A DNA stretch of 64,000 nucleotides from Aphelenchoides besseyi (lineage: Eukaryota > Nematoda > Chromadorea > Rhabditida > Aphelenchoididae), in NCBI GenBank assembly GCA_024699855.1, contig JAMPIQ010000001.1, positions 992,001 through 1,056,000 of the forward strand. Reading direction: 5' to 3'. The first letter of the stretch is position 1, and every line of letters begins with the position of its first letter. Under the pieces are notes generated by a model. That model searched no databases and was not told where the DNA came from. It was given only the letters and a program-made list of their open reading frames with translations. A program made the translations under genes and the position numbers. Below are positions 35,401 through 37,650 of this stretch, one piece after another.

Positions 35401-37650
35401 TACTCGCAATTTCGAGGCATTGAGCGTCAAAAGTGGTGGTACTCAAGTTTCGTTGCTTAACATTGTGATGGAACTGAAGAAGTGTTGTAATCATCCGTAT
35501 TTGTTTGCCAAGGCTAGTTTGGAAGCACCGAAGCAACCGAACGGCGCCTACGAAGGCCAATCGTTAGTGAAATCGTCGGGAAAATTTGTTCTCCTCCAAA
35601 AGATGTTGCAAAAACTGAAAGAAGGTGGACATCGCGTTTTGATTTTTACGCAAATGACGAAAATGTAAGTTCCTGAAGGTTATTGTTGTATTTGCGGAAT
35701 TTAATTTTAGGTTGGATATTTTGGAAGATTTGTGTGACAACGAAGGGTACCGTTATGAGCGTATTGATGGTTCTATTACCGGACAGTTACGTCAAGAGGC
35801 TATTGATCGTTTTAACGGTATGGTCTTTTGTGAAAAACTTATTCTTAAGAAATATCTTGCAGCTCCCAACGCTAAGCAGTTTGTCTTTTTATTGAGTACT
35901 CGTGCTGGAGGACTTGGAATTAATCTTGCAACGGCCGATACTGTTATCATTTACGATTCTGATTGGGTAAGTGAGGTATAAAAACAGAAGTATATTAATT
36001 GTGTGAATTTTAGAATCCGCATGCTGATACTCAGGTTGGTTTAACAATAATTAACTTTAAATTAATTAACTGTTTAACTTTATGAAGAGCTTAAATTTTG
36101 AACATTCACTAACACCGACTTTCAGGCCTTTTCACGTGCTCATCGAATTGGACAGCAAAATCATGTAATGATTTATCGTTTTGTAACTCGCAACTCAGTC
36201 GAAGAACGAGTTACAACAGTTGCAAAGAAGAAGATGCTTTTGACTCATTTGGTTGTGCGGGCCGGTAATGCTCAAAAGAATGTCGCGCTATCGAAGAACG
36301 AATTGGACGATATGCTTCGATGGGGAACGGAAGAATTGTTTAAAGAAGAAGATGAATGTAAGTTGATGTGTTGTCGTTCATCATGTGTCGTTGTTTACAG
36401 CCAATGAAAATCGAATTGTTTGGGACGATCAGGCAATCGAAGCGCTTCTTCAACGCACTACATCGACGGACGATACGGGAGCTGAGAAGAAAGATTGGTC
36501 GGACGATTATCTCAGCTCATTCAAAGTCGCTCAATATGTTACACGCACGGATAACGAAAAAGAAGAAGTCATGGAAGAGGGAGAGATCGACGAAACGGCC
36601 AATTCCGATTCTCAACATGCGAGTCCGGAGTTTTGGGAACGATTGCTTCGACATCATTACGAGCAAGTCCAAGAAACCGAAGCACAGGAGTTCGGAGTCG
36701 GCAAACGCATACGACGACAAGTGAATGAAGAGACTGAAGGAGAAACCAGTCATGAAAACAAGCCCGTTACAACACCATTAGCTCGTGTCAATGGTCGTAC
36801 CGCAGTCGTCGGCCAACGAAGATCGGACAACTCGAAAAGTGATGTCGAAGAAGATGAGTCGGATAACAAGAAGAAGCGAAGACGAAAAAAAGGCGCCGAC
36901 AAGAATCAGGACGATGACTACGGACCAGCAGCCAAAAAGAAACGTGGCCGAAAAAAGAAATCTGATGCGATTATCAACGGTGGAGATGGCGAGTCATCGG
37001 ATCAGGATTCGGATAACGGAAACTCGGAGCCGAAGAAGAAACGAAGACGCAAGTCCAAGGCTGATGGTGCAGAAGACGAGTTCAAAACGACGAACAACAA
37101 GAAGAAATCTTCAACCACCGATAAGAAGCAACTGAAGAAACGAAATGGCGATTTGAAACTTCGATCTCCGGACAAACCTGATTTAAACGTTCACGTGGTA
37201 CCCGAACGAGTACGACCGGTGCAGGGCATTAAGTTCAATGTCGAAAAGTACAAAGACGACGCCATTCAAAACAGCAGTCCCTATTTCAAACGTCTGGTTG
37301 AGGCCTTTGAACCGGTTAGACGCTACTTTTTGAAGTTGTCGAAACGTGATGCGTTTGGTGACACGGCCGAAATTGCGAAACCATTACTCAAAGTCGGCGA
37401 TTTCATTGTGGACTATGTGGTCAAAACGAAACCCGAAAAGTAGAGTTTTACAATCGAAATTGACTGTATAAATTCGTTTAGGAAAGTGCGTTGGTTCAAC
37501 TTAATGTGGATCTTTGTAGCTAATGGATTTTGTCCGGCCAAGGAACCGAACGAGATTTGGACGTTGTATATCAAGACGCTGATTATGCATCATCACAAAA
37601 AGGACAAGGAGAAGAAACCGAAGAAGCAGACAGTCATTCCGTCCACCTGA
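32405..37650 (+). CDS. Mi-2-type CHD chromatin remodeller with CHD1-like C-terminus
   Basis: Twenty exons give 1,434 aa: 32405-32597, 32643-32711, 32754-32804, 32847-32891, 32938-33164, 33208-33321, 33365-33922, 33965-34092, 34202-34337, 34385-34654, 34698-34756, 34798-35121, 35165-35338, 35380-35664, 35711-35817, 35863-35966, 36014-36034, 36126-36357, 36401-37439 and 37482-37650. An acidic/basic N-terminus leads to two PHD fingers (about residues 163-212 and 228-275), tandem chromodomains (about 280-460) and the SNF2 motor with [12 protein letters not shown] and [12 protein letters not shown] Mi-2-specific segment follows ([30 protein letters not shown]). These mark the CHD3/4/5 group, the ATPase of NuRD. 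After a Lys-rich nuclear linker the protein ends (about 1320-1425) with [17 protein letters not shown] and NLMWIFV. These resemble the CHD1/2 CHCT helical domain, while the usual Mi-2 SANT-like and CHDCT2 regions are missing. Confidence 0.93.

Follow-up and report, generated by a model that had tools for sequence, protein, structure and literature searches.

CHD remodellers are sorted into subfamilies by the parts that flank a common motor. The Mi-2 proteins (CHD3, CHD4 and CHD5; subfamily II) combine two PHD fingers, two chromodomains, an SNF2 motor and DUF1087 with an N-terminal CHDNT and a tail made of a SANT-like domain (PF06461) and CHDCT2 (PF08074), whereas CHD1 and CHD2 (subfamily I) carry their own DNA-binding domain (PF18375) and end, after a basic linker, in a CHCT domain. 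The CHCT fold in PDB 2n39 is a five-helix bundle. A review attributes the loss of CHCT to subfamily II (PMC13360762). A fission-yeast study reports that Prf1/RTF1 is bound at its N-terminal helix by the CHCT of the CHD homologue Hrp3, that the binding extends to the human and Arabidopsis orthologues, and that the Hrp3 C-terminus moved onto Hrp1 is sufficient for growth rescue (PMC13075793). The RTF1 site for CHCT is named the LLALA box in a further report (PMC13289920), and in a study on CHD4, removal of SANT-SLIDE reduces the affinity for nucleosomes 10-fold and slows remodelling six-fold (PMC11555702).

Within a 64,000-nucleotide stretch of the Aphelenchoides besseyi genome (the window, whose numbering is used below unless a contig is named), we observe a gene that shares parts with both subfamilies. 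Like the Mi-2 proteins, its predicted product has two PHD fingers, two chromodomains, the SNF2 motor and DUF1087; unlike them, it has a CHCT-type domain, and neither PF06461 and PF08074 nor the N-terminal CHDNT are listed for it by Pfam at E ≤ 1. It resembles CHD1 and CHD2 in placing the CHCT-type domain at the C-terminus behind a basic linker and differs from them in its PHD fingers, its Mi-2 type motor and the absence of the PF18375 DNA-binding domain from the Pfam matches at E ≤ 1. As the likeness to Mi-2 ends at the tail and, among the CHD1 features compared, the likeness to CHD1 is confined to it, we treat the protein as a variant that is a member of neither subfamily. The yeast protein consisting of Hrp1 with the Hrp3 C-terminus is similar in that CHCT is transferred to another CHD motor; it is a laboratory construct between two CHD1 paralogues (PMC13075793), whereas the present chimera appears to be natural and spans subfamilies I and II. 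Among the matches listed from the openly licensed PMC literature, none describes a Mi-2/CHCT chimera that occurs naturally.

Gene model and Mi-2 core

Manual GT-AG splicing yields a forward-strand gene of 20 exons (32405-37650) encoding 1434 aa, with its TGA stop at 37648-37650 and a reading frame that runs uninterrupted across the predicted splice. The introns are short, 17 of the 19 measuring 41-47 nt and the remaining two 91 and 109 nt. The 400 bases that follow the stop include a possible polyadenylation signal (AATAAA, forward strand, 37973-37978), and beyond them come open frames on the opposite strand. The next gene downstream (38025-39672, minus strand) resembles, by eye, the large subunit of DNA primase, and an Rfam scan of the window returns nothing at the gathering threshold.

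The N-terminal part of the protein contains two stretches each of PF00628 and PF00385. The PHD fingers 1 and 2 and the first chromodomain occupy 32938-33922 on the forward strand (exons 32938-33164, 33208-33321 and 33365-33922), and the second chromodomain, which is the best PF00385 stretch (residues 410-459), follows at 33965-34092 (+). The corresponding genome matches are C1:1025659-1025775 (33659-33775 in the window) for the first chromodomain and C1:1025965-1026084 (33965-34084) for the second. The SNF2 motor extends over several exons (34385-36357, +), with SNF2-rel_dom at residues 529-824 and Helicase_C at residues 851-964 (PF00176, E 8.5e-79; PF00271, E 7.4e-27). When a 525-residue piece of this motor is compared with PDB chains, human CHD4 (6ryr) is the best match at 878.6 bits, as against 505.7 bits for human CHD1 (9ear). 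The motor is followed by DUF1087, which is specific to Mi-2 (36574-36738, +; residues 1091-1145; PF06465, E 3e-14). The domain order, with both PHD fingers ahead of the chromodomain pair and the SNF2 motor, the proximity of this motor to CHD4, and the DUF1087 are all Mi-2 features, and on these matches, the helicase is clearly of Mi-2 type.

A CHCT-type tail joined within one exon

The resemblance to Mi-2 stops within the exon at 36401-37439. Its 1,039 nt contain a coding frame without a stop, while the five remaining frames contain 6, 21, 16, 17 and 6. The Mi-2 sequence comes first in this exon (PF06465, E 4.6e-15) and is followed by the onset of the tail domain, which is completed in the exon 37482-37650, just as the original prediction had it; the motifs on which that prediction was based are likewise present in the spliced protein. 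The first part of the CHCT-type domain (CHD1-like_C, PF13907) is encoded at 37291-37439 (+; residues 1330-1379) and the second, with the W-x-x-NLMWIFV motif, at 37482-37569 (+; residues 1379-1408). The last intron (37440-37481, +; GT..AG) therefore falls within the domain; at 42 nt, it is similar in length to most of the others, and it carries an in-frame TAG if left unspliced. The PF13907 match spans this intron and continues on its far side.

The 143-aa C-terminal fragment scores 30.8 bits against PF13907 (E 4.2e-7; curated cut-off 28.3), a value that is somewhat flattering because the fragment was chosen around the suspected domain. The match covers residues 39-117 of the fragment and profile positions 10-94 of 96. 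Within the full-length 1434-aa protein, the same domain reaches 24.2 bits (E 4.7e-5), which is under the curated cut-off of 28.3. The profile search that the original prediction proposed thus finds PF13907 above the cut-off in the fragment and below it at full length; PF06465 is found, and PF06461 and PF08074 are not. In comparisons with PDB chains, the closest to the tail is the human CHD1 CHCT (2n39) at E 0.033, which is weak taken alone and is followed by a spectrin chain at 0.076; 2n39 is again the best PDB match when a shorter tail piece is used. Single-sequence AlphaFold2 models of the tail, which included 14 intron-coded residues, have mean pLDDT values of 49.2 and 44.2. Used as a genome query, the tail matches itself alone.

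Between the Mi-2 sequence and the CHCT-type domain, we observe a short segment that may mark the join. Twelve residues encoded at 36778-36813 (+), after the Mi-2 sequence GKRIRRQVN, are identical at 8 of 12 positions to one of the other Mi-2 genes of this genome, L031 (LARVNGQIEVLG), where their counterpart is the start of the SANT-like domain. When the first 70 aa past GKRIRRQVN are shuffled, 2 of 5000 trials reach the score of this local alignment, and 2 of 2000 do so when the whole 150-aa linker is shuffled. The segment was detected by comparing two paralogues, of which L031 is the one that matches; against the other, L032, there is no such match (2180 of 5000 shuffles). It is a probable remnant of the first residues of a Mi-2 SANT-like domain. 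Downstream lies a Lys/Arg-rich linker (36814-37176, +; residues 1171-1291), and the 150 aa between GKRIRRQVN and PDLNVH include 29 K and 14 R. Because the relic, the Lys-rich linker and CHCT follow one another in the same exon, the join is placed inside 36401-37439. In L031 and L032, the SANT-like domain shares an open frame with the end of DUF1087. As far as can be read from sequence, these observations support a CHCT-type domain in the place of the SANT-like and CHDCT2 tail of Mi-2, joined to the Mi-2 core inside one exon.

Ordinary Mi-2 paralogues and the search for CHD1

The assembly consists of 31 contigs (47.4 Mb), three of which are large (18.1, 17.8 and 10.0 Mb); at the five contig ends examined, there are no telomere-like arrays. 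One of the small contigs, C30, is a COX1-bearing, mitochondrial contig of 2.5 kb (L059; 2500 bases), whose first 590 bases or so are CT-rich and of low complexity. Judged by eye, its COX1 resembles that of chromadorean nematodes. A chromosome count of 6 (ploidy 2) is given for Aphelenchoides besseyi, as it is for several species of Seinura and other nematodes (PMC11555361).

A genome search with the whole protein (33 of 51 candidates scored) recovers two more Mi-2 genes, both on C2, namely L031 (9.73 Mb) and L032 (10.44 Mb). The motor and DUF1087 are common to all three genes, whereas PF06461 (E 3e-51 and 1.2e-43 in the open frames of L031 and L032, respectively) and PF08074 (E 7.4e-48 and 2.6e-43) are found only in these two. 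Genome-wide, PF06461 has 2 matches at 2 places and PF08074 has 4 matches at 2 places, all of which are L031 and L032. An alternative gene model for the chimera with a Mi-2 tail was set aside, as these genome-wide matches include no SANT-like or CHDCT2 coding at the window. Conversely, PF13907 is absent at E ≤ 1 from the 11 C-terminal open frames of L031 and L032 that were scanned (6 in one scan and 5 in another). Since both paralogues retain the ordinary Mi-2 tail, the organism has not lost that tail, and the proposed loss of the Mi-2 C-terminal half concerns one of three Mi-2 genes.

Over 521 motor codons, the chimera is 92-94% identical to L031 and L032. It differs from L032 by dN 0.026 and dS 0.59 and from L031 by dN 0.048 and dS 0.81, while L031 and L032 differ from each other by dN 0.045 and dS 0.49; the synonymous distances among the three motors are below saturation. 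Judged by these rates, the chimera motor is under purifying selection. Three Mi-2 genes are thus present in a 47-Mb genome, and the pair that is closest at synonymous sites, L031 and L032, is separated by 0.7 Mb on C2 and oppositely oriented.

A separate CHD1 gene was looked for in this assembly in three ways, with a CHD1 ATPase probe, through an SNF2 inventory and by the CHD1 DNA-binding domain, and none was found. The SNF2 family search gives 27 matches at 13 loci (all 27 candidates scored): three Mi-2, one CHD6-9 type, SRCAP/SWR1, ISWI, BRM/BRG1, ERCC6, a Mot1-like gene and four others. The ISWI assignment is supported by a SLIDE domain, and the Mot1-like assignment is our own reading of matched chains labelled just "Helicase-like protein"; the four others (RAD54, SMARCAL1 and two ATRX-like) are assigned solely by eye. 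With the human CHD1 ATPase as the probe (38 of 38 candidates scored), all 42 matches fall inside 12 of the 13 loci, whose borders for this count were set by us. The longest stretches are 48-50% identical to the probe (Mi-2 and CHD6-9 type); identity is 57% over 144 residues in ISWI and attains 73-74% only over 39-40 residues of Mi-2, and no genomic place stands out as CHD1.

The search with the CHD1 SANT-HL1 profile (PF18375) returns a single match genome-wide, at C2:3639406, which looks like chance (E 0.17; 17.9 bits, with the cut-off at 34.4). The CHD-like gene L033, 0.3 Mb away from the chimera, was weighed as CHD1, since yeast Chd1 is the best PDB match for 124 aa of its motor. It was set aside and filed as CHD6-9 type on account of a tri-helical domain of that type (PF23078, E 4.4e-15) and of 7 scanned open frames that lack PF13907 at E ≤ 0.1. 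A direct genome search with PF13907 gives no match anywhere, the chimera included, and is therefore uninformative on the absence of CHCT; as the intron-split CHCT of the chimera was itself missed, another CHCT may have escaped. The original prediction had recommended looking for both a normal Mi-2 and a separate CHD1 elsewhere in the genome: the former exists twice over, while the latter was not found, which makes the swap more interesting.

Proposed origin and possible role of the chimera

The explanation we favor, and consider somewhat better than even, is that the gene is a natural chimera: in a Mi-2 duplicate, the DNA-binding tail gave way to a CHCT, probably that of the organism's own CHD1, and CHD1 disappeared. 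A duplicated subfamily II gene would have broken within the first residues of its SANT-like domain, losing that DNA-binding domain together with CHDCT2, and would have gained a basic linker and CHCT, with the organism's own CHD1 as the most likely donor. CHD1 itself would be gone beyond detection, and the order of these events is our inference. The notion that a CHD1-like module was convergently kept seems unneeded.

A one-event variant of this origin, not exclusive with it and to which we would give roughly one chance in three, is that recombination placed the Mi-2 duplicate within the CHD1 locus itself. CHCT would then have been gained and CHD1 lost in a single step, and the linker would be the one that preceded CHCT in CHD1. 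It accommodates the failure to find CHD1, with the sole CHCT found sitting on a Mi-2 gene, as well as the Lys-rich linker and a join that lies within an exon rather than at an intron. Because the PF13907 genome search missed even the chimera, however, further CHCT domains may be overlooked, which weakens the case for a single event. Slightly less probable still is an ordinary, undescribed trait of a nematode clade, in which the gene would represent an old class of Mi-2 paralogue; this is compatible with the favored explanation and would make the chimera older and more widespread. The dS of 0.59-0.81 to the paralogues leaves room for some age, but the motor is still near those of the two ordinary genes, and C. 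elegans is reported to have a CHD-1 separate from its Mi-2 homologues CHD-3 and LET-418 (PMC9988841).

We regard as improbable a tail that is a helical domain unrelated to CHCT or similar to it by convergence, with a weak profile match strengthened by the choice of fragment and the gene being a Mi-2 paralogue with a truncated, newly evolved end. Such a reading would account for the sub-threshold full-length PF13907 score, for a pairwise PDB match of E 0.033 with spectrin at 0.076, and for the low pLDDT of the single-sequence tail models. Against it, the fragment scores above the cut-off with nearly the whole profile matched in order across an exon junction, and CHCT is, in the review cited above, the C-terminal module of the sister CHD subfamily (PMC13360762). 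An artefact of assembly or gene modeling, such as a truncated Mi-2 with an independent CHCT gene beside it or a contig that is itself chimeric, is very unlikely, as the original prediction also held, given that both parts share a single open 1,039-nt exon and the motor is under purifying selection, even though window and genome come from one assembly and the latter offers no independent check.

If the gene is a natural chimera with a CHD1-derived tail, its PHD/chromodomain/ATPase core would be expected to read histone tails and slide nucleosomes as in Mi-2. The basic linker may partly replace the lost DNA grip of SANT-SLIDE, with reduced sensing of linker DNA. CHCT would act as a docking module that takes the motor to a CHD1-type partner, which in other species is RTF1, and as CHCT binds this elongation factor elsewhere, the chimera may be steered to transcribed genes. 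There, the Mi-2 motor could take over part of the gene-body nucleosome spacing of CHD1, while the usual Mi-2 roles would stay with the two ordinary paralogues. A bolder version, which we hold tentatively, is that the welding of a Mi-2 duplicate to CHD1's 3' end destroyed CHD1, and that the hybrid now performs the transcription-coupled nucleosome spacing of CHD1. By exchange of a recruitment domain, one remodeller subfamily would thereby have replaced another in nature, which is again conceivable rather than likely.

The docking partner is where the RTF1 comparison bears on this proposal. A Plus-3 match at C2:6.928 Mb, the sole place found, marks the RTF1 candidate, and in its predicted N-terminus (MSDSDSDVEKGNDQSSSKQGRPPKRG...; L061 1-700, C2 ~6.9263-6.9270 Mb), there is no obvious LLALA-like hydrophobic helix. 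At the level of predicted sequence, this speaks against RTF1 as the docking partner of the chimera. Either the LLALA box was missed in our reading of the exons, or docking is altered, or the tail serves another role; as the usual RTF1 box is seemingly missing, the partner is perhaps a new one. As an observation in its own right, an RTF1 candidate without an obvious LLALA-like helix in a genome without a detected CHD1 is a possible case of coupled loss.

A natural hybrid of subfamilies II and I in an animal where CHD1 is not detectable would allow the contributions of motor and docking tail to be told apart. If the hybrid does space nucleosomes on transcribed genes, recruitment by CHCT, and not the CHD1 motor or its SANT-SLIDE ruler, would define CHD1's job. 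It also prompts the question of whether other lineages without CHD1 have a compensating chimera.

Elsewhere in the window, a gene that we named PDI-like by eye has two introns (28537-28681 and 30198-30343) that share about 145 nt of near-identical sequence (95% over 82 nt and 97% over 69 nt). This repeat extends into the exons that code both CGHC-type active sites, which is suggestive of gene conversion or of a recent duplication within the gene.
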